Shown here: positions 6,135 through 27,157 of the stretch, piece by piece | How the letters are laid out: each line of letters opens with the position of its first letter | Position numbering within the stretch: position 1 is the first letter of the stretch | NCBI RefSeq assembly: GCF_003711805.1 | Contig: NZ_QXCP01000012.1 | Location: 186,001-250,000, forward strand | From: Brachybacterium sp. EE-P12 | Lineage (GTDB): Bacteria; Actinomycetota; Actinomycetes; Actinomycetales; Dermabacteraceae | DNA length: 64,000 nt | Reading direction: 5' to 3' | Position numbers and translations under genes: made by a program | The notes under the pieces: generated by a model | What the model was told of the DNA's origin: nothing | Database searches by the model: none | Seen by the model: the letters and a program-made list of their open reading frames with translations, nothing else

Positions 6135-6210
6135 TGGTCAGGTACTGGCGCAGGGCGTCCCAGTACGCCCATATGGACGTACTGGGACGCCCTGCGCCAC
6201 CGGATGACCA
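6135..6210. repeat. 76-bp dispersed palindrome, family A, copy 1
   Basis: A near-perfect hairpin: outer arms TGGTCA/TGACCA, a six-base unpaired step, then a 21-bp perfect inner stem containing GGCGCAGGGCGTCCCAGTAC, and a ~10-nt loop with ATAT. It lies between creatinase and the IclR gene. Copies of exactly the same length occur at 8270 and 27082. No run of T follows, so it is not a standard terminator. Confidence 0.85.
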
Positions 6211-6285
6211 CGATCTCCCGGCTCCTGCCGCCAGGCCCTCGCGCCGCCAGGCCCTCGCGCAGCGCGCCACCGCTAGGATCCGAGG

Positions 6286-7077
6286 ATGACCAGCACCAGC
6301 GACCGCGAGCGGACCGAGACCGGCCGTGGGGCCTCCGTCATCGTCAACGTCCTGCGGATCATCCGCTGCTTCACCGTCGAGCAGCCGCAGCAGGGCGTCA
6401 CGGAGATCGCCGAGAAGGTCGGGCTGCACAAGTCCAGCGTCTCGCGGATCCTGGCGACCCTCGAGCAGGAGCGGGTGGTCCAGCGCGACGCGGAGACCCG
6501 GCGCTACCGCCTGGGCCTGGGGCTCATCGCCGTGGCAGGCCCGCTGCTGGCGGAGCTCGACGTGCGACGGGTCGCGCTCGAGGACCTCACGGAGCTCGCC
6601 GAGCTCACCGGGGAGACCTCCGCGCTCGCGGTGTGGAACGGCGAGGCCTCGGTGACCGTCGAGCAGGTCCCGAGCCGCCACCAGATCAAGCACACCTCCG
6701 TGCTGGGCAGCCACTACCGCACCGCGCTCTCCTCGACCGTGCAGGTGCTCCTCGCGGCGCTCGACCCGGGCGAGGCCGAGGAGCTGGTCTCCTCGGGCAC
6801 GATCCGCCTCGAGGAGGGGTGGACGGTAGCCGGATATCTCGACCGCCTGGACGAGGTGCGCGCGCAGGGCTACGCCCTCAACGACCGCGCGACCTCCGAG
6901 GACGAGGTCTCCCTCGCCGCGCCGGTGCACGATCACCGCGGGGAGGTCGCCGGGGCGGTGCTGCTCGCGGCGCCCTTCTACCGGGCCGGTGCGGAGCAGC
7001 TGCCCGTGCTCGCCGACCGCACCCGCGCGGCGGCCGACGCGATCTCCCGCCGCCTCGGCGCGGTGCGCGCGGGCTGA
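6286..7077 (+). CDS. IclR-family transcriptional regulator
   Basis: A 263-aa regulator with an N-terminal winged HTH (GVTEIAEKVGLHKSSVSRIL, about residues 37-56) and a C-terminal IclR effector domain (GETSALAVWNG..., DEVSLAAPVHDHRGEVAGAV). TAGGAT at 6274-6279 ends six bases before the ATG, the leaderless-promoter pattern seen repeatedly in this window, which supports this start. Its place directly after creatinase makes it a candidate regulator of the creatine genes and of their shared GCAAC-N3-GTTG sites. Confidence 0.88.
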   Translation: MTSTSDRERTETGRGASVIVNVLRIIRCFTVEQPQQGVTEIAEKVGLHKSSVSRILATLEQERVVQRDAETRRYRLGLGLIAVAGPLLAELDVRRVALEDLTELAELTGETSALAVWNGEASVTVEQVPSRHQIKHTSVLGSHYRTALSSTVQVLLAALDPGEAEELVSSGTIRLEEGWTVAGYLDRLDEVRAQGYALNDRATSEDEVSLAAPVHDHRGEVAGAVLLAAPFYRAGAEQLPVLADRTRAAADAISRRLGAVRAG

Positions 7078-7084
7078 CCGCCCG

Positions 7085-7252
7085 TCACAGCGGGCCGACG
7101 ACCGCCTCCGCCACGCCGCAGGGCACTGAGGAGACGAGGGCCTCCGCCATCGTCTCGCCGACGTGCTCGTACGACTCGTCGCGCGGCCGAATGAGCTCCA
7201 GCGCCGCGTCGGCGAGGCTCACCGCGACCGGGCCGGTGATGACGATGCGCAT
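7085..7252 (-). CDS. 55-aa protein of unknown function, coupled to the betaine-binding protein gene
   Basis: A small reading frame starting MRIVITGPVAVSLADAAL and ending AVVGPL. Its ATG overlaps the stop of the preceding substrate-binding protein gene by one base (TGATG), and its third codon positions are almost all G or C like real genes here. No signal peptide or membrane segment is evident. I do not recognise the family; a truncated remnant of a larger enzyme is possible. Position suggests a role linked to the OpuC-like importer. Confidence 0.6.
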   Translation of the reverse strand: MRIVITGPVAVSLADAALELIRPRDESYEHVGETMAEALVSSVPCGVAEAVVGPL

Positions 7253-8208
7253 CAGACCAGGCCCTTCTCCGAGAGCCAGGCCGAGGCGATGTCGGCCGAG
7301 GACTGCTGCTCGACGGTGCTGCGACGGTTCAGCTCGACGAGGTCATCCGCGCTGAGCTCGGCGAGGACCGCGTCGATCGCGTCGGCCGCGGCCTCGTCGA
7401 TCTTCTCGGAGACGACCGGCACCACGTTCTGCGGCAGGATCATCGACTCGGGGTCCTCGAGCACCACGAGGTCGTTCTCGGCGATCGCGGGGTCGGAGGT
7501 GTAGATGTCCGCGAGCTGCACATCGCCGTCGACCAGCGCCTGCACGGTCAGCGGGCCGCCGGAGTCCTCCACGGGCACCACCGAGACGTCGACGCCGTAC
7601 ACCTCCTTCGCACCGTCGGGCCCGTAGGGGCGCACCTCGAACTCGCTGTTCGCCGCGATGGTGAGGTCCTCGTCGACGCCTGCGAGGTCCCCGATCGCGG
7701 TCAGGGAGTGCGCGGAGGCGAAGTCGGCGGTGGTCGTGTAGGAGTCCTGGTCGGTGGCCTCGGCGAAGTCGAGCACCCGCAGCCCGTCCGGCAGCGCCTC
7801 GGCGAGCGCGGAGTGGACCTCCTCGGGCGTCGCGGAGACGGCCTCGGAGTCGTAGTGCTGCAGGAGGTTCCCCAGGTACTCCGGCAGCACGTCCAGCGCA
7901 CCGGACTCGAGCTCGGGCATGTACACCTCGCGCTGCCCGATCTGGTACTGGCGGTCGACGGTGAGCCCCTCGGCCTCGAGCGCCTGGGCGAACAGCTCGG
8001 CGATGATCTCGTTGGAGTAGTAGGCCTGGGAGCCGATCGCGATCGCCGCCCCGGATCCGCCGCCGTCCGAGGAGCCGGAGCCGGAGTCGCCGCCGGAGCC
8101 GTCCTCCTCCTCGAAGGGGTCGGAGCTGCCGCAGGCCGCGGCGCCGAGGGCGAGGCCGCCCGCGCCGAGGACGCCGAGCAGGTGACGACGGGTGCTGTGG
8201 ATGCTCAT
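7252..8208 (-). CDS. OpuC/ProX-type glycine betaine-family substrate-binding lipoprotein
   Basis: A 318-aa binding protein of a type II osmolyte ABC importer. The signal STRRHLLGVLGAGGLALGAAAC ends in a lipobox Cys and carries a twin arginine, followed by a Gly/Ser/Asp-rich linker. The mature domain begins AIAIGSQAYYSNEIIAELFAQ, and PEYLGNLLQHY and SDPAIAENDLVVLEDP are typical of OpuAC/ProX proteins. It is separated from the permease genes upstream by a 187-bp gap holding hairpin family A copy 2. Substrate may be glycine betaine, choline or another quaternary or methylated amine; proximity to sarcosine/creatine genes is suggestive only. Confidence 0.88.
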   Translation of the reverse strand: MSIHSTRRHLLGVLGAGGLALGAAACGSSDPFEEEDGSGGDSGSGSSDGGGSGAAIAIGSQAYYSNEIIAELFAQALEAEGLTVDRQYQIGQREVYMPELESGALDVLPEYLGNLLQHYDSEAVSATPEEVHSALAEALPDGLRVLDFAEATDQDSYTTTADFASAHSLTAIGDLAGVDEDLTIAANSEFEVRPYGPDGAKEVYGVDVSVVPVEDSGGPLTVQALVDGDVQLADIYTSDPAIAENDLVVLEDPESMILPQNVVPVVSEKIDEAAADAIDAVLAELSADDLVELNRRSTVEQQSSADIASAWLSEKGLV

Positions 8209-8269
8209 GAGGGATCTCCTGGGTGGGTGGGTGCGAGCGGTCGGGAACGGGCCGGGGCGTGGGGTGGAG

Positions 8270-8345
8270 TGGTCGGCTGATGGCGCAGGGCGTCCCAGTA
8301 CGGCTGTACAGGCGTACAGGGACGCCCTGCGCCAGTACATGACCA
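8270..8345. repeat. 76-bp dispersed palindrome, family A, copy 2
   Basis: Same length and core stem as copy 1 (GGCGCAGGGCGTCCC with GGGACGCCCTGCGCC), outer arms TGGTC/GACCA, loop region TACGGCTGTACAGGCG. It sits inside the importer operon between the permease stop and the binding-protein start, where a hairpin in the mRNA could stabilise or separate the binding-protein message. Confidence 0.85.
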
Positions 8346-8395
8346 GCCGCAGCGGGGCAGGAGCGGTCGGCGAGCGGCGACGGCACGGGCCGAGG

Positions 8396-9067
8396 TCATG
8401 GGGCGACCGTCCCGCGCGGGGCGGTGAGGCGCTGGAGGAGCAGCAGGGCGAGGTCGAGCACGAGGGCGAGGACGATGACCAGCAGCGAGCCGGCGATCAT
8501 CTGCGGGTAGTCCTGGGAGCCGAGGCCTTGGAAGATGTACCGTCCCAGCCCGCCGCTGCCCACATAAGCGGCGAGCATGGCGGTCGCGACGACCTGCACG
8601 GTCGCGCCGCGCACCCCGCCCACCAGCAACGACATCCCGAGCGGGATCTCGACGCGGGTCAGGATCTGCCACTCGGTCATGCCCTGGGCGCGCGCGGCAT
8701 CGACAGTGGCGGGATCCGCGGACTCGACGGCGGAGTAGGCCCCGGCCAGGAGGGACGGGATCGCGAGGGTCACGAAGGCGAGCAGCGGGGCGGTCAGCCC
8801 GATTCCCACCAGCAGCGCGAACAGGGTCACCAGGCCCAGGGTGGGCAGGGCGCGGGCCACGCCCGCGGCACCGACGGCGAGGCCCTTGAAGCGGCCGGTA
8901 TGGCCGACGTAGAGCCCGACGGGCACGGCGATCAGCGCCGCGACCAGAACGCCGAGCGCGGTGTAGCCGAGGTGCTCGGCGGTGCGGACGGGGATCCCGG
9001 AGGGCCCTGACCAGCGCATCGGATCCGCGAGCCAGTCAAGCGCGCCGAGGAAGGGGTTCTCGTTCAC
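8396..9067 (-). CDS. OpuC-type ABC transporter permease
   Basis: A 223-aa membrane permease of the betaine/carnitine/choline importer family. Several hydrophobic segments and the EAA loop (TVDAARAQGMTEWQILTRVEIPLGMSLL) are visible, followed by AYVGSGGLGRYIFQGL, typical of OpuCB/OpuCD. Its start overlaps the stop of the next-upstream permease by four bases. It works with the second permease, the ATPase and the lipoprotein. Confidence 0.88.
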   Translation of the reverse strand: MNENPFLGALDWLADPMRWSGPSGIPVRTAEHLGYTALGVLVAALIAVPVGLYVGHTGRFKGLAVGAAGVARALPTLGLVTLFALLVGIGLTAPLLAFVTLAIPSLLAGAYSAVESADPATVDAARAQGMTEWQILTRVEIPLGMSLLVGGVRGATVQVVATAMLAAYVGSGGLGRYIFQGLGSQDYPQMIAGSLLVIVLALVLDLALLLLQRLTAPRGTVAP

Positions 9068-9714
9068 GGCCGGCCCGCCTCCCGTCCTCGATGCCAGGGC
9101 ATGAGTAGGCGCCCCAGCATCACCAGCAGCGCGTCGGTGAGCAGGGCGAGGGCGGCGGTGGCGACCACGCCGGCGGCGATCTCGGCGACGATCCCGCGCC
9201 GCACCCCGTCCACGAAGAGCATCCCCAGGCTCGGCACTCCGAGCACGCCGCCGACGGTGACCAGCGAGATCGTGCTCACCGCGACGACCCGGACCCCGCC
9301 CAGCAGCACCGGCCCGGCCAGCGGCAGCTCGACGGCGAGGAAGCGGGCGGCGGGCGCGTAGCCCTGCGCGGTCGCGGAGCCGAGCACGTCACGGCTCACC
9401 GAGCGGAACCCGTCGGAGGCGGTGGGGACCATCAGCGCGAGCCCGTAGAGGGTCAGGGCGACGACGATGTTCAGGGGGCTGCGCACCCCGGTGCCGATCA
9501 GGCCCGGCAGCAGCACGAACAGGGGCAGCGAGGGGATCGCGTACATGAGCCCGGAGGTGGTGGTCACTCCGGTGCGGAGCCAGCCACGGGAGTTCGCGAG
9601 CTTGGCCAGCGGCAGCGACAGCACGAAGGCGAGCAGGATCGGGGGCAGCGCCTGCACGAGGTGCGCGCCCGTGTAGCCGGCGATGACGTCGAGGTTGTCG
9701 AGGACCCAGCTCAC
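9064..9714 (-). CDS. OpuC-type ABC transporter permease
   Basis: A 216-aa second permease of the same importer. The EAA-type segment SRDVLGSATAQGYAPAARF and the VGGVLGVPSLGMLFVDGVRRG stretch are visible among about five to six membrane spans. ATGA overlaps join it to the ATPase gene upstream (9711-9714) and the other permease downstream (9064-9067), so the three are translated as a unit. Confidence 0.87.
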   Translation of the reverse strand: MSWVLDNLDVIAGYTGAHLVQALPPILLAFVLSLPLAKLANSRGWLRTGVTTTSGLMYAIPSLPLFVLLPGLIGTGVRSPLNIVVALTLYGLALMVPTASDGFRSVSRDVLGSATAQGYAPAARFLAVELPLAGPVLLGGVRVVAVSTISLVTVGGVLGVPSLGMLFVDGVRRGIVAEIAAGVVATAALALLTDALLVMLGRLLMPWHRGREAGRP

Positions 9715-10616
9715 CGGGGCCGCTCCTCGGTGGCCAGCGCTTCCGCCCCGGGCCCGGCGGCCGCGTCACCGTCGGCCGCGCCTCCGTCGCCGAGGCGCCC
9801 GTCGGCCCCGGCGAGCACCCCGGCGGCGCGTCCGTCGGCGTCCACCACGACGTCGCGCCCGTCGACGTGCTCGACGTGGAGGGTGCGCGCCCCGCGGTCG
9901 GCGCCGACGAAGCTGGCCACGAAGTCGTCGGTCGGGTCGGCGAGGATCTCCTGCGGGGTGCCGACCTGCGCGATCCGGCCGCCGGGGCGGAGGATCGCGA
10001 CGCGGTCCCCGATGCGGAAGGCCTCGTCGATGTCGTGGGTGACGAAGACGATCGTCTTGCGCAGCTCGCGCTGGAGGCGCTGCAGCTCGCCCTGGAGCTC
10101 GTCGCGCACGATCGGGTCGACGGCGCCGAAGGGTTCGTCCATCAGCAGGATGTTCGGGTCGGCGGCGAGGCCGCGGGCCACCCCCACGCGCTGCTGCTGG
10201 CCGCCGGAGAGTTGGGCGGGATAGCGGTCCGCGAGGTCGGGGTCGAGGCCGACGGTGTCCATCAGCGTGCGCGCCCGTTCGCGCGCCTCGCCCTTGGCGG
10301 TGCCGCGCAGCACGGGGACGGTGGTGATGTTGTCGAGCACGGTGCGGTGCGGGAGCAGCCCGGAGGCCTGCATGACGTAGCCGATCGAGCGGCGCAGGAC
10401 GACGGGATCCATCGCGGCGACGTCCTCGTCGTCGATGTGGACGCGCCCCGCGGTCGGGTCGACCATGCGGTTGATCATCCGCATGAGGGTGGTCTTGCCG
10501 GAGCCGGAGGTGCCCACGAGCGCGACGGCCTCGTGGGAGGCGATCTCGAGGGAGAAGTCCTCGACGGCGACCGTGCCGCCGGGGTACTCCTTGCGGACGT
10601 TCTCGAAACCGATCAC
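9711..10616 (-). CDS. OpuC-type ABC transporter ATPase
   Basis: A 301-aa ATP-hydrolysing subunit. Walker A is GTSGSGKTT (35-43), the signature [15 protein letters not shown], Walker B NILLMDEPF, then FVTHDIDEAFRIGDRVAIL. The C-terminus after about residue 240 is in the place of the CBS domains of OpuCA/ProV but is short and ends in a Gly/Ala/Asp-rich tail, so CBS-based osmosensing may be reduced or lost. The start is GTG at 10616 with GGGAGG close upstream. First gene of the operon 10616-7085. Confidence 0.9.
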   Translation of the reverse strand: MIGFENVRKEYPGGTVAVEDFSLEIASHEAVALVGTSGSGKTTLMRMINRMVDPTAGRVHIDDEDVAAMDPVVLRRSIGYVMQASGLLPHRTVLDNITTVPVLRGTAKGEARERARTLMDTVGLDPDLADRYPAQLSGGQQQRVGVARGLAADPNILLMDEPFGAVDPIVRDELQGELQRLQRELRKTIVFVTHDIDEAFRIGDRVAILRPGGRIAQVGTPQEILADPTDDFVASFVGADRGARTLHVEHVDGRDVVVDADGRAAGVLAGADGRLGDGGAADGDAAAGPGAEALATEERPR

Positions 10617-10728
10617 GGGGCCTCCCAGCGGAGATCTTGCCGACGAGCTCTCGTCGCCGGATGCTCCAGCCTATCCATCCCGGGCGAGGCGGTGGACGGA
10701 CCGGTGGGAGGCGAGCGGGGCAGGAGGG

Positions 10729-12396
10729 TCATGCCTCGACGGGGACTTCGGTCAGGCGCCACGTCTCCTCGTTGTCGTAGGCGAGCGGGCCGGTCACTCC
10801 GTACTGCAGCGTGACCTGCGCGCCCTCCTCGACACCGGCGACGTCGCGCGGGAAGACGAGCTCGAGCACGCGCGGCACCCCGCCGTCGGCTGCGGAGTTC
10901 ATCGACAGATCGGTCAGCGGCCGGATCGTGTCCGCCTCGCCGCCGGCGCGGTGGAAGGCCGGGTAGGTGATCACGCTGCCCACGAGCACCCCGACGCCGC
11001 CGCTGCTGGCGAGCAGGGTGTAGTCGCTGACGCCGTCGGGCTCCTGGGGCATCCCGGTGCCGGAGTCGAACTGGCCGATGCCGGTCACGCCGTTGCGCTC
11101 CTCGTCGGTGGGGGTGACCTCGAGGGTCACCACGAGGTGGCCCTCGACCATCCGGGCGGCGCCGAGCTGCAGGTCGAAGGGGCGCAGCACGTTGTGCTCG
11201 GTGCCGTCGAACTGCACGCCCTCGGCGGCGGTGCCGACCCTGCCCTCGAACTCCGGCAGCTCCGTCGTCTCCTGCTCCTCCCGCAGCGCGGTCTCGAGCA
11301 CGATCTCGACGCGCCGGTTCAGCGCCTTGCCCTCCTCCGTGTCGTTGGAGGCGATCGGCTCGGACTCGCCCTTCCCGTCGGTGGACAGCTGGTACGCGCC
11401 GGCGTCGAGGCGATCGGCGAGCGCCTCGGCCACGGCCTCCGCCCGCTCCTTCGAGAGCTTCAGGTTGACGTCGTCGGAGTCGACGCTGTCGGTGTGGCCG
11501 ATGATCGTCACCGGCCCGGACTCATGGGACTCGATCCGCCGGGCGGCCTCGTCCAGGGCCTCCTCGGCCTTCTCGTCCAGGTCCGCGGAGCTCGAGTCGA
11601 ACAGCACGTCGGAGCTGATCGCGACCGTGGTGGTCTCGGCCTGGCGCTGCTCGCGGATCGGCTGGGCGAGGTCCTGGGACAGCGCCAGCATCGGCTCCAG
11701 CGGCGCCTCCTCGACCGCGGCGAGGTCCAGCTGCTCCTCGGCGCCGTCGATGGCGGGCACCTCGGCGTCGATCACCGGTACGTCCGCGAACAGCGGGAGC
11801 TTCGGGACGTAGACGGCGAGGGCGTCCGCGCCAGGGTCCGCGAAGGCGACCTGCACCGTGCCGCGCAGGCCGTCGCCCTGGGAGCCGCCGCCGTCGGAGG
11901 TTTCGCCCTGCCCTCCTTCGACGATCAGCCCGACGGTCTCCCCGTCGCCGTCGAGGGCGGTGGAGGCGACACGGTCCCCTGCGAGATCCAGCAGTCGCAC
12001 GCCGAAGCAGTCCCGGGTGTCCCCGGACGAGGAGCCCCACCCGTCGCCCCACCGGTCCGTCGCCCCGGAGGCGAGGCCCGCTGCCAGGGCGTCCTGCTCC
12101 TCGGCGTCGGAGGCGCCCTGGTCGGCGCTGAGGTCGAGGGTCAGCACGAGGCTCTCGCCGCTGCGCACCAGCGGGCGCACCCCCACCGTCACCTCGGTGC
12201 GGCCCAGCATGAACGTCGAGCTCGCCACCGCGGCCGAGGGATCCGCCGTCGCGTCGGCGCCTCCTCCGCCGCCGTCGCTGCCCGATGAGCCGTCCCCTTC
12301 CTGCGCCGGGTCCGCCTCGTCACGATCCGTGCAGGCGGTGACCACGCCGCCGGCGAGGAGCGCGGAGAGCATCGTGCGTCGTCGCAGAAGAGCCAT
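10729..12396 (-). CDS. OmpA-domain lipoprotein
   Basis: A 555-aa surface lipoprotein. The signal MALLRRRTMLSALLAGGVVTAC ends in a lipobox; a Gly/Ser/Asp-rich linker follows. About residues 270-390 form an OmpA/MotB peptidoglycan-binding domain (VLFDSSSADLDEKAEEAL, IIGHTDSVDSDDVNLKLSKERAEAV, NRRVEIVLE). The flanking N- and C-terminal regions look like beta-rich extracellular segments I cannot name. TACCCT at 12404-12409 lies seven bases before the ATG at 12396, so I prefer this start to the one at 12423. Probably anchors in the membrane and binds cell wall. Confidence 0.85.
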   Translation of the reverse strand: MALLRRRTMLSALLAGGVVTACTDRDEADPAQEGDGSSGSDGGGGGADATADPSAAVASSTFMLGRTEVTVGVRPLVRSGESLVLTLDLSADQGASDAEEQDALAAGLASGATDRWGDGWGSSSGDTRDCFGVRLLDLAGDRVASTALDGDGETVGLIVEGGQGETSDGGGSQGDGLRGTVQVAFADPGADALAVYVPKLPLFADVPVIDAEVPAIDGAEEQLDLAAVEEAPLEPMLALSQDLAQPIREQRQAETTTVAISSDVLFDSSSADLDEKAEEALDEAARRIESHESGPVTIIGHTDSVDSDDVNLKLSKERAEAVAEALADRLDAGAYQLSTDGKGESEPIASNDTEEGKALNRRVEIVLETALREEQETTELPEFEGRVGTAAEGVQFDGTEHNVLRPFDLQLGAARMVEGHLVVTLEVTPTDEERNGVTGIGQFDSGTGMPQEPDGVSDYTLLASSGGVGVLVGSVITYPAFHRAGGEADTIRPLTDLSMNSAADGGVPRVLELVFPRDVAGVEEGAQVTLQYGVTGPLAYDNEETWRLTEVPVEA

Positions 12397-12492
12397 GTCC
12401 GGCAGGGTAGGCACATCGGTCATCTGTCCTCAAACCGCCGTGCGGCACCCCGCCATCCCGTGCCGCCGGCGCAGTCGTCCCCTGCCGACGGC

Positions 12493-13314
12493 TCACCGCA
12501 GCGGCAGCGGCGGATGCTCCCCGACGCGCAGCGTGCCTCGGTGCACGGTCAGCGCCGCCCCCTGGCCCAGGGTCGCGAACCCCGCCTGCGGGTAGCCGGT
12601 CGAGGAGACGAGAACCCGGTCGGTATCGGCCCGCCAGCGCAGGTCGTAGACCTCCACCGGCTGGTCGGCCGGGGCCTGGGCGGGGTCGTGCTGGGCGTAG
12701 GCGACGAGCGTGCCGGGGGTGGTGAGCAGGCAGTTCAGCGACTCCGGCGGGCGGTCGAAGAGCTCCGTGGACAGCGCGGTGAGCTCGGCGGCGGCGTGCT
12801 GGACCGCGAGCGCCCAGTCGGGTGCTCCGTCACGCGGCGGCAGCTCGTCGGCCCAGGCGGTGATCAGCGAGAGGAACAGTTCGGAGTCGGTGGTGCCGAG
12901 CGGGACGCGGCCGCCGCGGGCCAGGATCCGCTCCCGCAGCTCGTCGGAGAGGTCGAACTGTCCGTTGTGGCTGAAGGTCACCTCCTCCTCGACGAAGGGG
13001 TGGGTGTTCTCGGGGGTCAGGGCGAGGCCCACGCTCGCCCGGCGCAGGTGCACCACGATCACCTCGGCGCGCGCCTCGTCGACCGCGTCCCCGTAGGCGC
13101 CCGAGGCGAGCGCGGTGTCGGTGCCGCGGCGCAGCAGCGGACGGGTCGGCGCTGGATCGTCGCCGCCGTCGGCCCCGGTGCCGGGGGGATAGGAGGCCAC
13201 ACCCCAGCCGTCCTTGTGCCGCTCCGAAAGCGCGGTGAACAGCGGGAGCTCCTCCGGGACCGCCTCGGGCAGCGGCAGCGCGCCGCGGGAGACGACGCCG
13301 AGCAGACGGCACAT
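12493..13314 (-). CDS. Class II glutamine amidotransferase (YafJ/EgtC-like)
   Basis: A 273-aa N-terminal-nucleophile amidotransferase. It starts MCRLLGVVSRG, placing the nucleophile Cys at residue 2. The typical HKDGWGVASY, VVHLRRASVG, ENTHPF, FSHNGQFDL and GTTDSELFL motifs follow in order. An AAGGAGGAG site precedes the ATG. Substrate is unknown; ergothioneine-pathway EgtC is related, but the other egt genes are not nearby. Confidence 0.85.
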   Translation of the reverse strand: MCRLLGVVSRGALPLPEAVPEELPLFTALSERHKDGWGVASYPPGTGADGGDDPAPTRPLLRRGTDTALASGAYGDAVDEARAEVIVVHLRRASVGLALTPENTHPFVEEEVTFSHNGQFDLSDELRERILARGGRVPLGTTDSELFLSLITAWADELPPRDGAPDWALAVQHAAAELTALSTELFDRPPESLNCLLTTPGTLVAYAQHDPAQAPADQPVEVYDLRWRADTDRVLVSSTGYPQAGFATLGQGAALTVHRGTLRVGEHPPLPLR

Positions 13315-17105: not shown

Positions 17106-17168
17106 CACCGAGTGCTGCGTCTGGACCGCTATGACGAGCTCATAACGGTCCAGACGCAGCACTCGGTG
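17106..17168. repeat. 63-bp dispersed palindrome, family B, copy 1
   Basis: Arms of 29 bases pair with a single mismatch around a 5-nt loop. The stem contains CGAGTGCTGCGTCTGGACCG and its complement. It ends 13 bp after the pyridoxine kinase gene. A second copy at 57716 precedes pdxH. There is no T run, so a simple rho-independent terminator is not indicated. Confidence 0.85.
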
Positions 17169-20215: not shown

Positions 20216-20289
20216 CTGGTTCACCGGAGCGCTCTAGCTCCGTCTTCTCTGCATCCCGAAGGAGACGGCCCCTCGCGCCCAGAATCATC

Positions 20290-21156
20290 ATGAGCATCCC
20301 ACCCCCTCAACCTCCCCAGTCAGGATCCCCCAACCCCTGGCACCCCTCGTCCGCGAACGGCCAAGGCCCCTCATATCCGTCAGGCCCCCCTTCGCACGAG
20401 CCCCCGTACGGGTCTCCCTACGGACCTCCGTCGAACGGCAGCCCGTACGGTGCGCCGCCGCCCACCACCTCTCCTGGTGCTGCTTACGGGTTCCAGCCCG
20501 GACAGCAGCCCCCGACCAAGAACGAGTCCGGCAGCGGGGGCGTCGTCAAGTGGTTGGTGATCGGCTGCCTCGGATGCGCAGGAATCGTCGTTCTCGGTTT
20601 CCTCGCGCTGCTCCTCCTCGCCGTGCTCGACGGAGGAGGCGACGACGAGACGCCGACCTCTACGACGTCGGTCGAGACGGGCGTCAGCGACGGCGGCGGA
20701 GAGGCGACAGACGCGGACGCGGAGAACGCGCCGGACGACGAGAGCGGAGAGGAGAACGCCCCTGCCGATCCCGCCGACGTCACCGCCGAGACGGACGCCG
20801 TCAAAGTCACCGTCCTGTCGATGGAGCGGACTCAGGAGCTGAGCGATTCGCTCTGGGAGTACACGACGAGCAACGAGTACGTCGTCATCGACATCAGCTA
20901 CACCAACAAGTCCTCGGAAAGCCTGGACCTCTGGGCGAACGACATCGTCCTCGTCGATCCCGAGGGTAAGGAGTACGAGGCCAACACCGATGTCTCACTC
21001 GCCGTCGAGGCACCGATCATCATCGAGGAGATCAATCCGGGTCTGACCATCGAGGGCACTCTCGTCTACGAGGTCCCGGCGGGCACGGAGTTCGCAGAGC
21101 TCCGCTTCGAGGGGAGCTACGGGACCGGCGAGGCCGTGACCATCGACTTCGATTGA
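20290..21156 (+). CDS. Proline-rich single-span membrane protein with DUF4352-like extracellular domain
   Basis: A 288-aa protein: a Pro/Gly/Ser/Tyr-rich cytoplasmic N-terminus (1-~75), one membrane span (about 85-112, VVKWLVIGCLGCAGIVVLGF), an acidic Asp/Glu/Ala linker, then a ~120-residue domain beginning AVKVTVLSMERTQELSD and containing YVVIDISYTNKSSESLDLWAND and the LTIEGTLVYEVPAGTEFAEL ending. That beta-sandwich pattern fits DUF4352/TRF2-like domains of actinobacterial surface proteins. Function unknown. Confidence 0.78.
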   Translation: MSIPPPQPPQSGSPNPWHPSSANGQGPSYPSGPPSHEPPYGSPYGPPSNGSPYGAPPPTTSPGAAYGFQPGQQPPTKNESGSGGVVKWLVIGCLGCAGIVVLGFLALLLLAVLDGGGDDETPTSTTSVETGVSDGGGEATDADAENAPDDESGEENAPADPADVTAETDAVKVTVLSMERTQELSDSLWEYTTSNEYVVIDISYTNKSSESLDLWANDIVLVDPEGKEYEANTDVSLAVEAPIIIEEINPGLTIEGTLVYEVPAGTEFAELRFEGSYGTGEAVTIDFD

Positions 21157-21180
21157 GTCAGCCCTCCGAGCCGTCGCGCT

Positions 21181-21219
21181 GACGCCCCCTTCCTGCCTCG
21201 TCGGCGGGAAGGGGGCGTC
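21181..21219. terminator. Bidirectional terminator between convergent genes
   Basis: A perfect 13-bp stem GACGCCCCCTTCC / GGAAGGGGGCGTC with a 13-nt loop, followed by CCTCTCTC, lies between the stops of the DUF4352 protein and the fatty acid oxidation gene. Confidence 0.75.
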
Positions 21220-21238
21220 CCTCTCTCACGCCCTCGGG

Positions 21239-23461
21239 TCACCGACCCGCGGTGAACCGCTCTCCATGGAAGGCGCTGCCCGTCGTGCGCTCGGCGGCGC
21301 CGGAGGCGTCGAGATAGGGGGTGATCCCGCCGCGGTGGCGGGGGAAGCCGGCGCCGAGGATCAGCGCGAGGTCCACCTGCTCGGGCTGCTCGACCACGCC
21401 CGCCTCGATCATGAGCTGGATCTCCTCGGCCAGGCCCGCCCGCACCTTCTCCAGCAGCGCCTCCCCCACCAGCGGCTCGACCCCGGCGGGGCGCTCGCCC
21501 TCGCCGAAGACCTGTGCGACCGTCGGCGAGACCGGAGGGTGCACGGCGGTGCGGCTGCGCTCGGTGAAGTGGACACCGCCCTGCGCCATGACGCCCAGGC
21601 CGGGCGAGGCGTGGAAGCGGCCGCCGAGCTCCTCGACGAGCACCTGACCCACGTGGTCCGCGACGCCGAGACCCACGAGGTCCAGCAGCGCGAAGGGCCG
21701 CATCGGCATGCCGAGAGCGTCGAGGGAGACGTCGACCTCCGCGGGATCGGCGCCCGCGTCGAGGGAGGCGAGCACGGCGCCGAGCACGCGGAACAGGAGC
21801 CGGTTGACGATGAAGCCGGGCGCGTCGGCGCTGCGCACCGCGAACTTCCGCAGGCGGCGCACCACCTCGAGGCCGGTGGCGAGGGTCTGCTCGTCGGTGG
21901 CCTCGGTGTGGATCACCTCGACCAGCGGCATCTTCGCGACGGGGTTGAAGAAGTGCAGGCCCACCACCCGCTCAGGGCGGGCGAGCTCCTCGGCCATCCG
22001 CGCGACGGACAGCGAGGAGGTGTTGGTGACCAGCAGCGCATCCTCGGCGAGGACGCCCTCGAGCTCGGCGAAGACGGACTTCTTGACCGCGAGCACCTCG
22101 GGCACGGCCTCGAGCACGAGGTCGCAGCCTGCGAGGTCCTGCAGGTCGGTGGTCGCGGAGAGGTTCTCCGCGATCGCGGTCGCGCTCGCCTCGTCGAGCA
22201 GGCCGCGAGCGGCGGCCTGCGCGACCACGTCCCGGGCGGCGGCGAGGCCCTTCTCGGCGGTCGTCTCGTCGAGGTCGCGCATGACGACGGGGACCTGCAG
22301 ACCGAGGGCGAGCTGCGCGGCGATCTGGGAGGCCATGAGGCCGGCCCCGGCCACGCCCACGCGACGGATCTCGCGGGCGCCCTCGACGGGGGTGCGGCCG
22401 GGCTTGCCGCGGCGCAGCAGCTCGGCGGAGTAGAGGGAAGCTGCGGCGGCGTCGCTGCTGACGAGCTCGGCGAGCGCCTCCCCCTCGCGGGCCAGGGCGT
22501 CCTCGAGGGTGGAGCCGGGCAGCTGCTGCAGCAGGATCAGCGCGCGGCCGACGGCGGGGGCGCCCTGCTCCTCGAGCCGCTGCGCCCAGGCGCGGCGGGT
22601 CTCGGCGGGGGTGTGCGGGGCGTCGAGGGCATCGAGCAGCTCCTCCGCCTCGGGGGATCCGGCCGCGGGCAGGGCGGGGGCGCGGCCGCCCCAGGCGGCT
22701 CGACCGGCCGCGTCGGCGGCGCTCGTGCCGGTCGTGCCCGCCTCGCCGATCACGGCGGGGTCGACCACGTCGGTGTCGGTCTCGTCGACGTCGACGTGGG
22801 CGGCGACCAGGGCGGCGAACTGGTCGAGCGCCTCGTCGAGGTCTGCGGCGAGCTCGTCGACCAGGCCGAGCTCCTCGGCTTCCTCCGCGGTGAGCTGCCG
22901 GTCCCGGGCGGGGTCCTCGAGGATCATCCGCACGGCGGTCTCCGCGCCGACGACGGACTGCAGGAGGGTGGTGCCGCCCCAGCCGGGCAGGATGCCGAGG
23001 CTCGTCTCGGGCAGGCCGATGCCGCGCACGCCGGGGGCGGCGGTGCGCACGTCGGCCATGAGCGCGACCTCGAGGCCGCCGCCGAGTGCGACGCCGCCCA
23101 GGTGCGCGAGGAGCGGCACGGGGCTGGTGCGCACACGGACCTGCAGGTCATGGGCGGCATGGGTCATCTCGTGGACGTTCTCGGCGGCGGTCGGGTCGGC
23201 GAACATCGACAGGTCCGCGCCGGCGAGGAAGGCGCGGCCGGTGCCGGTCATCGCGATCGCCTGGACCTCGCCGGCCTCGGCGCGGTCGAGCGCGGTCGCG
23301 ATCGCGCCGGTGACGGCGTCGATCGAGCGGGGGCCGAGGGTGGCGGGGCGGCGCTCCTCCCCCTCGGGAGGGGCGAAGGTCAGCACGGCCACGGTCCCGA
23401 GTCCGGGGTGCTCACGGTCCTCCGTGAGGACGCGGGTGATGTGCTCGGTGTAGCTGCTCAT
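21239..23461 (-). CDS. Fatty acid oxidation complex, enoyl-CoA hydratase / 3-hydroxyacyl-CoA dehydrogenase
   Basis: A 740-aa bifunctional beta-oxidation enzyme (FadB/FadJ type). The N-terminal crotonase domain shows FLAGADLSMFAD and LGGVALGGGLEVALMADVR, GLPETSLGILPGWGGT. The NAD-binding half begins RRVGVAGAGLMASQIAAQLALG at about residue 340 and has VTNTSSLSVARMA, HFFNPVAKMPLVEVI, DAPGFIVNRLL. A C-terminal 3HCDH domain with FPRHRGGITPYLD ends the protein. The partner thiolase is not adjacent; one is at 47389-48606. AAAGG precedes the ATG. Confidence 0.92.
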   Translation of the reverse strand: MSSYTEHITRVLTEDREHPGLGTVAVLTFAPPEGEERRPATLGPRSIDAVTGAIATALDRAEAGEVQAIAMTGTGRAFLAGADLSMFADPTAAENVHEMTHAAHDLQVRVRTSPVPLLAHLGGVALGGGLEVALMADVRTAAPGVRGIGLPETSLGILPGWGGTTLLQSVVGAETAVRMILEDPARDRQLTAEEAEELGLVDELAADLDEALDQFAALVAAHVDVDETDTDVVDPAVIGEAGTTGTSAADAAGRAAWGGRAPALPAAGSPEAEELLDALDAPHTPAETRRAWAQRLEEQGAPAVGRALILLQQLPGSTLEDALAREGEALAELVSSDAAAASLYSAELLRRGKPGRTPVEGAREIRRVGVAGAGLMASQIAAQLALGLQVPVVMRDLDETTAEKGLAAARDVVAQAAARGLLDEASATAIAENLSATTDLQDLAGCDLVLEAVPEVLAVKKSVFAELEGVLAEDALLVTNTSSLSVARMAEELARPERVVGLHFFNPVAKMPLVEVIHTEATDEQTLATGLEVVRRLRKFAVRSADAPGFIVNRLLFRVLGAVLASLDAGADPAEVDVSLDALGMPMRPFALLDLVGLGVADHVGQVLVEELGGRFHASPGLGVMAQGGVHFTERSRTAVHPPVSPTVAQVFGEGERPAGVEPLVGEALLEKVRAGLAEEIQLMIEAGVVEQPEQVDLALILGAGFPRHRGGITPYLDASGAAERTTGSAFHGERFTAGR

Positions 23462-23616
23462 CGGGGACCTTTCGCGATCTCGTCGTCGAGTGCCGCACAG
23501 TTGTCTGATACTGCCGGTTTCAGATAGATCATGCCTCAGCGCCGGGGCGGGTGTCCACCGCATCGGCGCGGCGGGCCAGCGGCGCGGTTCCCGCCGCCAC
23601 GTGCACGACGGCTCCG

Positions 23617-23633
23617 GGGCGGCACCGCCGCCC
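23617..23633. terminator. Short GC hairpin after the membrane protein gene
   Basis: GGGCGGC-ACC-GCCGCCC directly abuts the stop codon at 23634. It has a seven-base stem and no T run, so termination is possible but weakly supported. Confidence 0.35.
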
Positions 23634-24545
23634 TCAGCCGGTCGCGAAGTAGAGGACCTCTCCGCTGAACGTCTCCACGCCGAGGCGGAAGGTCTCCAGC
23701 TCGGTCTCGGGGACGAGGAAGGCGCTGTGGAAGCGGGCGCTCTGCCCGTCGGCGAGCGGCGTGATCCGCTTCATCGGGTCCGGGACGATGCCCTCGCCGA
23801 CGTCGGGGAAGTAGGTGCGGTCGGACTCGCCGGTCAGCCACAGCTCCTCCGCGGGGGCGAGGTGCCCGGTGCCGTCGTAGCGCACCTCGTAGTCGACCAG
23901 CACCAGGTGGTATCCGTCCTGGAGCAGGTCCTCCCCTCCCGCGGCGGGCAGGGTCGCGTCGAGGTCGACGGCGTGCGGGGTGACGGAGAGGGTCCCGCCG
24001 GTCCAGACGTTCCAGGTCACGGTGTGCTCGCCGATGGTGGCCGGGTCGTCGTAGCCGCCGGTGCCGTCGTCGACCTCGCGCCCGTCGGCGTCGGTGACGG
24101 TGCCCGGCTCGCGCGTCCGCTCCTCCTCCTGCGAGGCGGGGGCGCGGGTGGCGGGCGCGGAGCTGGGGGCGGCCGACGGGACCGCCTCGTCGTCGGCGAG
24201 CAGCGTCCGTGCGGTCCCGAGCACGAGCGCGACGATGGCGACGGCGGCCGCCCCCTGGACGGCGACCATGGCAAGGATCGCCCAGGCGGGGAGGCGTCCC
24301 TCGCGGCGCCCCTCCTCGGGCGGTGGGGGCGGCGGCTCGTCAGTGAAGGTCGGGGCGCCGAAGGGCGCCTCGTCGCCGAGGTCCGAAGGGGTGCGCGGCG
24401 GCGAGGCGGCATCGTGCGCAGGCAGGGAGAAGGGGGCCACGGCGCCCATGGGGGACGACGGGGAGGGGGCGGGGGCTTCCGGCCCCTGTCGGCCGGCGCC
24501 GTCCTCCCAGTCGTAGTCGGAGGGCGACCCCCGTCCCGTACTCAT
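23634..24545 (-). CDS. Single-span membrane protein with DUF4352-like extracellular domain
   Basis: A 303-aa protein with a Pro/Glu-rich cytoplasmic N-terminus, one membrane span (about 88-112, LPAWAILAMVAVQGAAAVAIV), a Ser/Ala/Pro linker and an extracellular domain containing HTVTWNVWTGGTLSVTPHAVDLD, YHLVLVDYEVRYDGTG and FLVPETELETFRLGVETF. Its layout parallels the protein at 20290 on the other side of the fatty acid oxidation gene. TAGGCT ends six bases before the ATG, supporting this start and a leaderless message. Function unknown. Confidence 0.75.
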   Translation of the reverse strand: MSTGRGSPSDYDWEDGAGRQGPEAPAPSPSSPMGAVAPFSLPAHDAASPPRTPSDLGDEAPFGAPTFTDEPPPPPPEEGRREGRLPAWAILAMVAVQGAAAVAIVALVLGTARTLLADDEAVPSAAPSSAPATRAPASQEEERTREPGTVTDADGREVDDGTGGYDDPATIGEHTVTWNVWTGGTLSVTPHAVDLDATLPAAGGEDLLQDGYHLVLVDYEVRYDGTGHLAPAEELWLTGESDRTYFPDVGEGIVPDPMKRITPLADGQSARFHSAFLVPETELETFRLGVETFSGEVLYFATG

Positions 24546-24636
24546 GCTCCGAGCCTAGAGGACGGACACGTCGGGGGAGGCTGCTCGCCCCGGGGTCCAC
24601 ACCGGCCCCTTCGGCCCGCCGGCCCGCCGCGGGCGC

Positions 24637-24789
24637 TCAGCCGATCCAGGAGCCGACCAGCACGTAGACCACGACGGAGACGACCACGACGATCCCGAGC
24701 AGCGCGAGGGCGACGACGGTCGGCGAAGGCCGACGAGAGCCACGCGGCTCGGGCGTGCGAGGGGACTCGTCCTTGCTGGTCTGCGGCAC
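24637..24789 (-). CDS. 50-aa single-span membrane protein
   Basis: A small reading frame with a GTG start at 24789 preceded by GGAAGGAG at good spacing. The product has a charged N-terminus (PQTSKDESPRTPEPRGSRRP) and one hydrophobic segment (PTVVALALLGIVVVVSVVVYVLVGSW) ending near the C-terminus. Codon use is typical for the region. Similar tiny membrane proteins are common and mostly uncharacterised in actinobacteria; no function can be assigned. Confidence 0.7.
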   Translation of the reverse strand: MPQTSKDESPRTPEPRGSRRPSPTVVALALLGIVVVVSVVVYVLVGSWIG

Positions 24790-25032
24790 GGACCGCGCTC
24801 CTTCCGGGGCAGGGCGGACCCGGCGGCTCCGGGTGCGTTCACGATACCTCGGCGACCGGGGACCACCCCGCGCTCGCGGACTCGGAGGAGGTCACGTAGC
24901 AGGATGCCTCCACGGGCTCTCGCCCCGGACCGATCCGAAGGTTCCGGGCCGACGGGAGTAGCGTGATCCGGTCTCGCCCCGCAGGGCGCACTCCCTGCCG
25001 CACCCCTCTCCTTCCCGTGCCCGAGGACCCGC

Positions 25033-25833
25033 ATGACTGCCCACGACCCCCTCTCCGATACGCCGCTCCCGCCCGTGCACCTACCGACCCGCCCACGCGA
25101 TGACGCGGACGGGCCCGGCACCGCCCAGGTGCCCGTCTCCCCTGCCCCGGCGGCGGGCGAGGCCGTGCTCGACGAACCGGCGTGGTCCTCGCTCACCGGT
25201 GCCCACCGCCACCTCGCGATCGGCAACGAGCACGTGCTGCGCTACCCCTCGGACGTCTCCCCCTTCGTGGGGGTGCACGACTGGGAGCACCCCGAGGTGT
25301 GGGACGCGATCCTGGACGTGTTCGGCCACGACGCCGTCGTCTCCGTCTCGCACGCCGATCCGGTGCTGCCCGAGGGCTGGCGCCCCGAGTTCTCGATCCC
25401 CGGGGTGCAGCTGGTCCAGACCGAGCGCCTCGCGCCGCAGCCCGAGCCGGAGGCAGTCGAGCTGGGCGCGGCGGACAGCGCCGAGATGCTCGCGCTGATC
25501 GAGCTGACCCGGCCCGGCCCCTTCGAGGCGCGCACCCATGAGCTGGGCCGCTACGTGGGGATCCGGCGGCAGGGAGAGCTGATCGCGATGGCCGGCGAGC
25601 GCCTGCATCCGGCGGGCTGGACGGAGATCAGCGCGGTCGCGGTCCACCCCGAGCACCGCCGGCAGGGACTCGCTTCCCGCCTCGTGCTCGACGTCGCCTT
25701 CCACATCCAGCAGCGCGGCGACCGGGCGCTGATGCACGCCTCCGCCGCGAACACCGTCGCGATCGCCGGCTACGAGAAGCTCGGCTTCTCCCTGCGGCGC
25801 CGCCTCACCTTCGGCGCGGTGCGCACGCCCTGA
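25033..25833 (+). CDS. GNAT-family N-acetyltransferase (FR47-like)
   Basis: A 266-aa protein whose C-terminal half is a GNAT domain: [47 protein letters not shown], where RRQGLAS is the acetyl-CoA pyrophosphate loop, then [26 protein letters not shown]. The N-terminal ~120 residues are family-specific and unassigned. GAGGAC precedes the ATG. Substrate unknown. Confidence 0.82.
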
Positions 25834-25898
25834 GCCTCGGGTCGCATCGGGGTGCGCCTGCGGCCCCTGCACGTCTCCCGGCTCGGTACCGTCGTGCC

Positions 25899-27020
25899 AT
25901 GACCATGACCATGAGCGCGAGCTGGCCCGAGCCCCTGCAGGACGTGGATCGCAGCGATGAGGAGCTGCGGGCCTGGGTGGCCGAGCGGATCCACCGGCTG
26001 GACGCCGACGGGCGCCGCAGCGCCGACACCCATCTGGTGCGCCTGGACCTGCCGGAGGACTGGGACATCCAGCTCTACCTCAAGGACGAGTCCACGCACT
26101 CCTCCGGGAGCCTCAAGCATCGCCTGGCCCGTTCGCTGTTCCTGTTCGCCCTGGTCAACGGGCAGCTGCGTCCGGGTATGCCGGTGATCGAGGCGTCCTC
26201 CGGCTCGACGGCCGTGAGCGAGGCGCATGTGGCGCGGATGCTGGACATCCCCTTCGTCGCGGTGATCCCGCGCGGCACGAGCGCGCGCAAGATCTCGCTG
26301 ATCGAATCCGCCGGCGGGCACTGCCACGTGGTGGACGGCGCCGCGGACATGAGCCGGGCGGCGCAGCGCCTGGCCGAGGAGCGCGGCGGGCTGTTCCTGG
26401 ACCAGTTCACGCACGCCGAGCGGGCCACCGACTGGCGGGGCAACAACTCCATCGCCGTCAGCGCCCTGGCCCAGCTCGAGCTCGAGCCGCATCCGGTGCC
26501 GCGCTGGATCGTGGTCGGCGCGGGGACGGGCGGGACCAGCGCGACCTTCGGGCGCCTGCTGCGCTACCGCAGTCTGCCCACCTCGCTGTGCGTCGCGGAC
26601 GTGGAGAACTCGGCGTTCTTCCCCGGCTGGGTCCAGGGGGATCCGACGCTCACGACGGGAGAGGGCTCGCGGATCGAGGGCATCGGCCGCCCGCAGGTCG
26701 AGCCGAGCTTCGTGCCCGGGGTGGTGGACCGCATGATCCGGGTGCCCGATGCGGCCTCGGTCGCCGCGGCCCGGTATCTCTCCGAGGTGCTCGGCCGACG
26801 GGTCGGCGCCTCGACCGGCACGAACCTCATCGCCTCCGCGCAGCTGATCGCCCAGATGCGCGAGGGCGGGGAGGCTGGCTCGGTGCTCACCCTGCTGTGC
26901 GATCCGGGCGACCGCTACTCCGACACCTACTACGACGACGACTGGGTCGCCGCGCAGGGCTGGGACCTCGCACCGTGGCGCGCGGCGCTCTCGGAGCTGC
27001 TGCCGCTCGGGGTGCGCTGA
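25899..27020 (+). CDS. Cds1-like L-cysteine desulfhydrase (PLP fold type II)
   Basis: A 373-aa cysteine-synthase-family enzyme. [20 protein letters not shown] carries the likely PLP lysine, [19 protein letters not shown] replaces the canonical phosphate/asparagine loop region, and [18 protein letters not shown] is the PLP phosphate cup. [19 protein letters not shown] is a hallmark of the mycobacterial Cds1 branch, which releases H2S and pyruvate from cysteine. TACCGT ends six bases before the ATG, a leaderless promoter pattern. Substrate assignment rests on family resemblance. Confidence 0.78.
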
Positions 27021-27081
27021 GAGGGTTCCGGGCGCCGGCCCCGCTCCGCCACCGGCTGGCTCCGCCACCCCGCTCCGGGAT

Positions 27082-27157
27082 TGGTCATCTGCTGGCGCTG
27101 GGCGTCCCACTACGGCGATATAGGCACAGAGGGACGCCCAGCGCCAGTACCTGACCA
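27082..27157. repeat. 76-bp dispersed palindrome, family A, copy 3
   Basis: Same length as copies 1 and 2 with TGGTCA/TGACCA ends. The core is GCGCTGGGCGTCCC with GGGACGCCCAGCGC: relative to the other copies A became T on the left arm and T became A on the right arm, keeping the pair. It lies between the convergent Cds1 and GH32 genes. Confidence 0.85.

Follow-up and report, generated by a model that had tools for sequence, protein, structure and literature searches.

What are the 76-bp palindromes that recur at three places in the 64,000-nt stretch of Brachybacterium sp. EE-P12 DNA considered here (the window), and by what route did they get there? A sequence-only reading of the window had left three main options, namely a REP/MITE-like mobile hairpin, a protein-binding site or an RNA element. 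We consider it probable that the hairpins are the dispersed, non-autonomous half of a two-part system, the other half being a nuclease gene, and our best reading is a REPtron-like system on an unrelated nuclease that would spread hairpins into gaps behind genes.

Hairpin copies and their gene context

The three copies (Table 1) are present as the sequence-only reading had described them, with a length of 76 bp, TGGTC...GACCA ends, the stems it gave and intergenic positions, and the compensated base change it had noticed is real (A18:T59 in copies 1 and 2, T18:A59 in copy 3). Their fold energies lie far below those of 200 dinucleotide shuffles each.

Table 1. Hairpin copies in the window, with the parts of copy 1; z values refer to fold energy.
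Feature	Positions	Strand	Length	Gene context	Evidence
A-type hairpin copy 1	6135..6210	.	76 bp	Peptidase_M24/creatinase–IclR gap, tandem	sequence, fold z -10.0, R1/R2 matches
Copy 1, outer stem	6135-6140/6205-6210				
Copy 1, segments without need to pair	6141-6145/6200-6204				
Copy 1, inner stem	6146-6169/6176-6199				
Copy 1, AT centre	6170-6175				
A-type hairpin copy 2	8270..8345	.	76 bp	in importer operon, between permease and OpuAC binding-protein genes, tandem	fold z -9.8
A-type hairpin copy 3	27082..27157	.	76 bp	PALP-enzyme/GH32 gap, convergent	fold z -8.0
C-type hairpin copy	32077..32153	.	77 bp	55 bp from, and downstream of, LacI-type regulator gene (minus strand); 189 bp upstream of solute-binding-protein gene	R2 E 1.2e-5; DNA fold z -4.65

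The C-type copy was overlooked in the earlier reading and lies outside the 38 places matched by model R2 in this genome. It has the geometry of copies 1-3 (6 bp, 5-nt loop, long stem) with a divergent sequence, and its type is that of both hairpins around a nuclease gene elsewhere in this genome (G000:C18:136226-137011; similarity 0.81). At the places syntenic to the window in genome G012, there is no hairpin corresponding to the C-type copy, a diverged copy in the gap corresponding to copy 3, and, for copy 2, a hairpin start and end with an assembly break within.

Further copies in this genome had been proposed as a test of the family, and they were found at 27 places with model R1 and at 38 with model R2. 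The training copies of R2 came out of 15 of the 38 Brachybacterium genomes, and its counts are biased accordingly. Family matches occur in 24 of these 38 genomes and in none of 278 sampled genomes from other genera of the same order. Fifty-seven copies align as ungapped 76-mers, mostly with TGGTC...GACCA ends. A genome of another family (G050) gave an R1 match and was rejected as a carrier, the ends of the one copy inspected (L051) being unlike those of the family; none of nine pattern matches in viral contigs was confirmed as a family member.

The hairpins mostly occupy gaps behind gene 3' ends. Among 98 intergenic copies from five genomes, 50 lie in convergent, 42 in tandem and 6 in divergent gaps; divergent (promoter) gaps are thus avoided (6/98 versus 32/101 background gaps), and most copies are therefore not operators. 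This distribution, together with the very stable folds, would suit bidirectional terminators or mRNA 3' stabilizers selected for their RNA fold, an account we nevertheless regard as improbable: no terminator-like site (a hairpin followed by a T run) was found at copies 1-3, in agreement with the earlier impression that they do not look like terminators, nor at the C-type copy; a fixed 76-nt length and a genome-specific sequence are superfluous for termination; and the pairing with one nuclease family described below would go unexplained. In addition, G-U and A-C mismatches are equally frequent in transcription-oriented tandem copies (31 versus 32 in 23 of 25 copies, two of odd length being left out), which argues against terminators and disfavors the RNA-element option. 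At gathering score, Rfam covariance models gave no match in the window or in five related loci.

Pairing of the arms

The earlier claim that the fold is under selection holds for some genomes and hairpin types. In this genome, partner arms match over 84.3% of the stem versus 74.5% for re-dealt arms (z 7.6), and matching is likewise above that of re-dealt arms in G012 (z 4.7), G014 (z 3.1) and the B type of G058 (z 3.3). No such excess is seen in G004 (z 0.4) or in the A type of G058, whose arms match less than dealt ones (z -4.1). Columns 7-11 pair no more than expected, either across the 57 copies (kappa -0.26 to 0.20) or within any single type; a z of 3.0 for these columns was obtained in pooled G058 copies, a mixture of two types.

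Compensated arms might also arise, with the fold unselected, by template-switch correction of imperfect palindromes. Symmetric changes could follow from such a process, and a comparison by eye of one orthologous site shows two arm variants that G029 and G026 share on opposite arms. We regard this alternative as doubtful, since columns 7-11 lie inside the palindrome and lack pairing excess, and since spread, exact length and nuclease pairing are left unexplained. Template switching covers only the upkeep of the arm match and is compatible with the two-part system proposed here.

Orthologous copies were considered as proof of in-situ compensation and rejected for this purpose, as a base-by-base alignment was obtained only for one degenerate pair (L067/L085), in which an A-T pair has become G-C at columns 25:52. 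Seven other syntenic pairs between this genome and G012 are 65-78% identical, each below the mean identity of the copy to those of its own genome, so that they may represent independent insertions or concerted evolution; a further pair (L053/L081) was left out of this set owing to the 75-nt length of its G012 member.

A probable nuclease gene between matched hairpins

The candidate partner is a protein of ~260-310 aa with a probable Vsr/EDxHD-like (MTES_1575/DUF559) nuclease domain. Out of 73 profile matches, 50 nuclease genes were examined, and 20 of these have similar palindromes on both sides versus none of 182 control genes (17/44 without the six profile-source genes). Counted by R2 matches, for the nuclease genes and not for the controls, flanking applies to 25 of the 50 and, within the top tier, to 14 of 18 genes. 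The palindrome finder detected no hairpin on either side of 16 of the 50, one of which (G003a) has a weak R2 match (E 0.018). The nuclease units contain whole hairpins, not split arms. One hairpin pair, in L160, encloses a gene other than the nuclease.

Hairpins and nucleases also correspond in type. The two hairpins of one gene have a similarity of 0.82 versus 0.42 between genes, and hairpin similarity tracks nuclease similarity (Mantel r 0.76, reached in 0 of 5000 permutations; 31 of 34 genes, G028b, G015 and G011 with one-sided palindromes being left out). Several nuclease types have at least 10 matched copies per genome, and four of five dispersed sets fit the nuclease flanks of their own genome best (G012 A, G014, G058 A and G058 B), by a narrow margin in the case of G058 A (0.76 versus 0.75 for G033a); the G004 copies fit the G058a flanks at 0.74 and their own at 0.73. 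For the protein-binding-site option of the sequence-only reading, the flanked nuclease now provides a candidate partner. The hairpins around the gene could act as operators or insulators instead of substrates.

Assignment of the domain draws on several profiles. PF18741 (Vsr-like/MTES_1575) scored above its cut-off in one of seven full-length proteins (38.4 versus 38.2 bits) and below it in the other six (E 2e-5 to 6e-8), DUF559 exceeded its own cut-off in two of the seven, and PDB matches at E 0.004-0.006 were 3r3p ('Mobile intron protein') and 3hrl ('Endonuclease-Like Protein'). NCBIfam models gave only unrelated matches far under cut-off, and PHROGs no match. In an alignment of 48 proteins (the 50 less two interrupted by an internal stop), E180, D207, E217, D219, H224 and D233 are invariant (numbering of the first sequence), and these acidic and histidine residues are presumably catalytic.

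The N-terminal region bears a weak likeness to AbiEi winged-helix domains; the AbiEi_4 match is weak in one Brachybacterium protein and just above cut-off in a Tsukamurella relative. Of three proteins run through PADLOC, one gave weak matches, to DpdF and to a homing endonuclease. Together with the hairpins on either side of the gene, these matches would accommodate a nuclease whose binding to the adjacent hairpins regulates its own expression or belongs to a defence or toxin-antitoxin-like unit. Dispersed copies would then be decoys, protective marks or sites of regulation that multiply by ordinary duplication, not through the nuclease. We consider this unlikely, though the least so of the alternatives, because divergent gaps are avoided and the number of matched copies per genome exceeds what simple regulation needs.

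Two clades of the nuclease, A and B, have good support, and their genes mostly keep to shared chromosomal loci. Each genome has at most one gene of each clade, seven of eight clade-A genes share one locus and the ten clade-B genes two, and dN/dS values of 0.21-0.44 in six pairs point to purifying selection. The median number of R2 matches is 30 in the 15 genomes with an A- or B-clade gene versus 0 in the 23 without (Mann-Whitney p 8.7e-5). G006, G013 and G023 have at least 10 R2 matches each and no A/B-clade nuclease, and this genome has the most matches of all, yet likewise no such gene. Its A-nuclease locus contains a solo hairpin only, for which reason copies 1-3 look like relics.

Under the two-part reading, the nuclease would recognize its cognate palindrome, either as an extruded hairpin or as double-stranded DNA with two inverted half-sites, and would cut at or near it; repair or strand transfer would then place a hairpin copy into a new gap, and new copies would be well tolerated at 3'-end positions only. 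In this genome, the A-type nuclease would have been lost from its ancestral locus, while the C-type copy would still have a resident nuclease.

Mobile elements, known repeats and relatives

Among the small repeats found in bacterial chromosomes, palindromic ones are common, and the enzyme described for them is the HUH-type RAYT. Brucella Bru-RS1, Rickettsia RPE and Caulobacter CerM resemble the Brachybacterium hairpins in being palindromic and intergenic, with lengths from tens of bp to ~100 bp; we know of no nuclease partner for them.

The mobile-hairpin option of the sequence-only reading was right in kind, but a RAYT-type transposase was not found (PF01797 in 0 of 38 Brachybacterium genomes including this one, versus 5 of 14 control genomes), and the tested signs of a MITE are missing. 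No target-site duplication was found: over 1-12 flank bases of 57 copies, identity is not significantly above that of shuffled pairs. Inverted flanks are not significant either. A search for a split-arm parent transposon in this genome, with a single-arm pattern that suits its dialect and is uninformative for G058, gave, apart from the known copies, only two matches, neither of which resembles the family. No clean case of an empty and a filled site with identical flanks was found; between G029 and G026, whose identity is mostly 91-95%, the sites considered lie in non-aligning islands and were discarded. A classical MITE, its insertion sequence's transposase since lost, would fit small, palindromic, dispersed elements and the lack of an A/B-clade partner in this genome, but is very improbable given the missing duplications, the two unrelated single-arm matches and a partner gene that encodes a Vsr-like nuclease and mostly occupies fixed loci.

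Passages of the REP literature describe REP/REPIN elements as palindromic intergenic repeats, mostly downstream of genes; cognate repeats enclose the gene of their RAYT (TnpA-REP), which is not itself mobile, and each enzyme type has a repeat type of its own (PMC3116915, PMC6006769, PMC3733652, PMC8266576). The Brachybacterium system agrees in these points, and also in a single-copy, vertically kept enzyme per repeat type (clades A and B). It differs in the enzyme, a Vsr-like one, no HUH/Y1 transposase having been found in the 38 genomes, and in repeats of ~76 nt that are not built on the tagged palindrome (GTAG or CGTC, 20-40 nt) by which a 2013 survey defines REPs (PMC3733652). CGTC-tagged REPs and other RAYT-less repeats appear there as dispersed palindromes whose dedicated transposase is not known, and repeat classes without any enzyme remained (PMC3733652); the Brachybacterium hairpins, equally dispersed, have a dedicated enzyme candidate and another size and sequence. 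The MTES_1575 domain is termed a novel Vsr-REase in a passage of PMC3710099. With EDxHD/Vsr-like homing endonucleases and DUF559 proteins, the nuclease shares a domain that aligns with 3r3p and 3hrl; unlike them, it is flanked by matched hairpins and accompanied by dispersed ones, and it gives no apparent sign of residing in an intron or intein. Titles and passages searched for such a nuclease-hairpin pairing, a coverage that leaves out most subscription papers, yielded none.

We see an even balance for and against the broader proposition that a Vsr/EDxHD-fold nuclease, unrelated to HUH transposases, spreads its own flanking palindrome across bacterial chromosomes. Enzyme-driven palindromic repeats would then have evolved a second time, independently, and possibly not in Brachybacterium alone. 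If true, palindromic repeat families without a known transposase could be explained. A nuclease that differs in fold from the RAYT but matches it in arrangement, cognate specificity and inheritance at fixed loci offers orphan repeat classes a testable partner and DUF559/MTES_1575 proteins a concrete candidate substrate, and the association points to a new route by which small DNA repeats spread in bacteria.

As to relatives outside the genus, an unannotated fecal contig (MT839994) encodes a nuclease of 47% identity, and a palindrome lies on each side of the gene. Among plasmids, matches were found in three records of Tsukamurella, with a weak one in Actinomyces oris; a ~76-nt palindrome adjoins the gene in two of the three Tsukamurella relatives, and in two Tsukamurella records the DUF559/MTES_1575 proteins are annotated as AbiEi-type antitoxin.

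Hairpin copies in the window and across the genus

The three copies recognised by the sequence-only reading were confirmed in length, coordinates and stems (Table). Each is 76 bp long and has a 6-bp outer stem (TGGTCR/YGACCA), 5 + 5 nt that are free to stay unpaired, and a 24-bp inner stem with an AT centre. No Rfam family matched within the window at gathering score, and no terminator-like site was found at copies 1-3.

Table. Hairpins of the window; fold z of copies 1-3 is relative to 200 shuffles each.
Feature	Position	Fold z	Context or description
Copy 1	6135-6210	-10.0	creatinase-type peptidase gene to IclR gene
Copy 2	8270-8345	-9.8	permease gene and OpuAC binding-protein gene on either side
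Copy 3	27082-27157	-8.0	gap of convergent PALP and GH32 genes
C-type hairpin	32077-32153		
Separate hairpin	17106-17168	-13.2 (DNA fold)	63 bp, near-perfect, other sequence type; 29-nt arms, 97% complementary; between two minus-strand genes

A genome-wide covariance-model search, proposed earlier as a check, returned further copies: 27 places in the 3.96-Mb draft genome containing the window (G000) with R1, a model built from eight copies, and 38 with R2, built from alignment A2 of 57 copies out of 15 Brachybacterium genomes. A2 is gap-free, its copies having been chosen at 76 nt; a few others measure 73-82 nt. R2 (E up to 1e-4) matched 24 of 38 Brachybacterium genomes and, in an order-wide sample at E up to 1e-7, 8 of 19 Brachybacterium genomes and none of 278 others, with strict filtering and a small number of candidates scored, at the cost of weak matches. 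R1 also matched a genome of another family, G050; the one copy read there (L051:1501-1575) is a long palindrome of its own kind with different ends and a weak score. In genome G012, two hairpins (L120, about 9560-9660; L075, about 9930-10080) are interrupted by assembly artefacts (poly-G, N10 and poly-C). Hairpins can break short-read assemblies, so that copy counts from draft genomes are lower bounds.

In G000, 26 of the 27 R1 places are of A type, mostly with TGGTC ends, while 12 places (C9:338525 and L185-L195) carry the B type with GTGTC-like ends; the C type comprises the window hairpin (Table), a second dispersed copy found among the loci searched (L053:1126-1200) and the hairpins around a G000 nuclease gene. 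A tRNA gene lies 65-194 bp upstream of 4 of the 12 B copies, and tRNA-Phe 64 bp upstream of one of the 26 A copies. Five B copies (L186, L187, L189, L192, L193), four of them directly behind tRNA genes, have about 150-230 bp in common, hairpin included, and are thus embedded in a longer repeat. Close pairs, 166-224 bp apart, recur (L069:3001-3076 and 3167-3242; G014 1925013/1925209; G058 1142201/1142376, 1543208/1543402, 3618321/3618487 and 3824664/3824888), in several cases with the flank duplicated along with the hairpin, resembling small tandem arrays.

A probable nuclease gene between matching hairpins

In four cases, two copies spaced by about 1.1-1.2 kb have a recurring gene between them; the pair at locus L160 encloses a different one. 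Profile A3, built from six of the recurring genes (three between copy pairs, three found by tblastn beside copies), had 73 matches, spread over 35 of the 38 genomes; of these matches we examined 50, namely the 37 strongest and 13 of 36 weaker ones. With a palindrome finder set to lengths of 72-79 nt, a minimum arm complementarity of 68% and a distance of at most 450 bp from the gene, 34 of the 50 genes had a palindrome on one side at least and 21 had one on each side; in 20 of the latter (17 of 44 genes without the six profile-founding ones) the two sides resembled each other. The corresponding counts for 182 control genes of the genus were 25, 0 and 0. Adding R2 matches, for the nuclease genes alone, raised those flanked on both sides to 25 of 50 (by tier 14/18, 4/19 and 7/13). 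To the finder, 16 of the 50 genes were bare on both sides, among them G003a, which has a weak R2 match. G058 has two nuclease genes, and one of them (L169:1672-2619) is interrupted by an internal TGA, its flanking hairpins still being recognisable.

Matches of the product's C-terminal domain to PF18741 (MTES_1575 REase) and to DUF559 fall for the most part below the cut-offs; it also matches PDB entries 3hrl and 3r3p (E 0.004-0.006), the latter being the EDxHD homing endonuclease I-Bth0305I. NCBIfam yielded unrelated matches, all far under cut-off, and PHROGs none; dN/dS was 0.21-0.44 in six gene pairs. PMC3710099 terms the MTES_1575 domain a novel Vsr-REase.

Hairpin and nuclease types go together. 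For 31 genes with hairpins (three one-sided genes omitted), hairpin similarity was 0.82 within one gene (24 genes with two or more) and 0.42 between genes, and tracked protein identity (Mantel r 0.762, 0/5000 permutations; 0.69 among gene pairs less than 75% identical). Two clades of the nuclease tree, A with 8 genes (support 99/98) and B with 10 (100/99), have hairpins with similarities of 0.64 and 0.52 within the respective clade versus 0.46 between the two. Dispersed copies were closest to the nuclease flanks of their own genome for G012 A (0.73), G014 (0.76), G058 A (0.76, against 0.75 with G033a flanks) and G058 B (0.79), and the C-type window hairpin fitted best those of G000's own C-type gene (0.81); G004 copies scored 0.74 with G058a flanks and 0.73 with their own. 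The median number of R2 matches, counted on both strands with a model trained on 15 of these genomes, was 30 where an A/B-clade gene is present and 0 in the rest (p 8.7e-5); G000, G006, G013 and G023 have at least 10 without such a gene.

The gene itself does not seem to travel with the repeats. One chromosomal neighbour gene is common to seven clade-A genes (G004, G012, G014, G024, G025, G033, G058), the eighth, G003a, standing outside this evidence. At the corresponding locus G000 has a solo hairpin (C7:110535-110610) whose outer flanks are both common to G024 and G033, for which loss of the A nuclease would be the simplest reading. Clade B occupies one locus in G058, G012, G024, G019 and G018, plus G030 on one side, and another in G029, G026, G017 and G035.

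Placement, turnover and selection on the fold

In five genomes, 50 intergenic copies were convergent, 42 tandem and 6 divergent (omitting four copies that overlap called genes: two in G058, one in G000 and one in G012), versus 13, 56 and 32 among 101 copy-free background gaps (Fisher p 7.8e-9 for the convergent excess, 3.5e-6 for the divergent deficit). These gaps, none shorter than 76 bp, came from the same loci of G000, G058, G004 and G014, and genes were called by a purpose-written codon-usage script. Among 19 further copies from other genomes, partly overlapping the G004 and G014 sets, one was divergent. Site 8270 is empty in G001, G002, G004, G019, G021, G022, G058 and G059, whose gaps we read, and holds an unreadable hairpin in G012; site 6135 is empty in G021 and G012, both with a gap of some 560-620 bp that may contain another gene. 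In all seven syntenic G000/G012 pairs that were compared (L053/L081, 75 nt, excluded), identity (0.65-0.78) was below the copy's own-genome mean (0.76-0.81). At an orthologous site in G029 (L091:3001-3076) and G026 (L036:1501-1576), arm variants CGTATGG and CAAATGG stand on opposite arms, as if the inner arms had been exchanged within the palindrome.

Over the 57 copies, which pool several species, 87.3% of stem cells are paired versus 72.3% after re-dealing of the 3' letters, 23 of 30 stem pairs show both-sided changes, and covariation is 0.386, versus 0.146 after shuffling and no more than 0.123 after sliding. In one degenerate G000/G012 pair that aligns through its flanks (L067/L085), an A-T pair has turned into G-C at 25:52, a change compensated in situ. 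The earlier proposal that the folded form is under selection held in part: within single genomes, arm pairing exceeded that of re-dealt arms for G000 (z 7.6; 26 of 27 R1 copies, the 82-nt copy omitted), G012 (4.7), G014 (3.1) and the G058 B type (3.3), but not for G004 (0.4) or the G058 A type (-4.1), whose arms are now unequal. At columns 7-11, pairing was not in excess, either across the 57 copies (kappa -0.26 to 0.20) or inside any single type (z 3.0 in pooled G058, where two types are mixed), so that a general correction of palindromes would be insufficient to explain the matching. Nor did mismatches point to selection at the level of an RNA strand: when oriented by transcription, 23 of the 25 tandem copies together had 31 G-U and 32 A-C mismatches. 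C5, G13, G14 and G33 are invariant across 114 arms, and conserved patches recur, by eye, about every ten bases, a spacing that would suit a protein reading the hairpin.

Relation to known repeat systems

Support is good both for the hairpin family and for the pairing of its members with the nuclease; spread of the hairpins by the nuclease is a putative step, if the most likely one. PMC6006769, PMC8266576, PMC3116915 and PMC3733652 describe the REPtron as a single-copy enzyme beside cognate palindromes, with repeats elsewhere, type by type. The hairpin-nuclease arrangement equals this, whereas a search of 38 Brachybacterium genomes returned no HUH enzyme, the hallmark of a REPtron, and the hairpin is without the described REP size and tag; the system works like a REPtron, yet is no REPtron. 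Of the suggested REP/MITE-like mobile hairpin, the REP-like arrangement stands; target duplication was not found at 57 hairpin copies. CGTC-type REPs are described in PMC3733652 as being without a dedicated transposase, a gap to which the pairing speaks; our literature search found no report of it. Its occurrence beyond Brachybacterium is suggestive only: among three plasmid relatives from Tsukamurella, a ~76-nt palindrome adjoins the gene in two (26/38 and 26/37 positions matched) and is lacking in the third, and a nuclease with 47% identity on fecal contig MT839994 is flanked, according to a looser finder, by a 58-nt palindrome 101 bp upstream and a 64-nt one 84 bp downstream.
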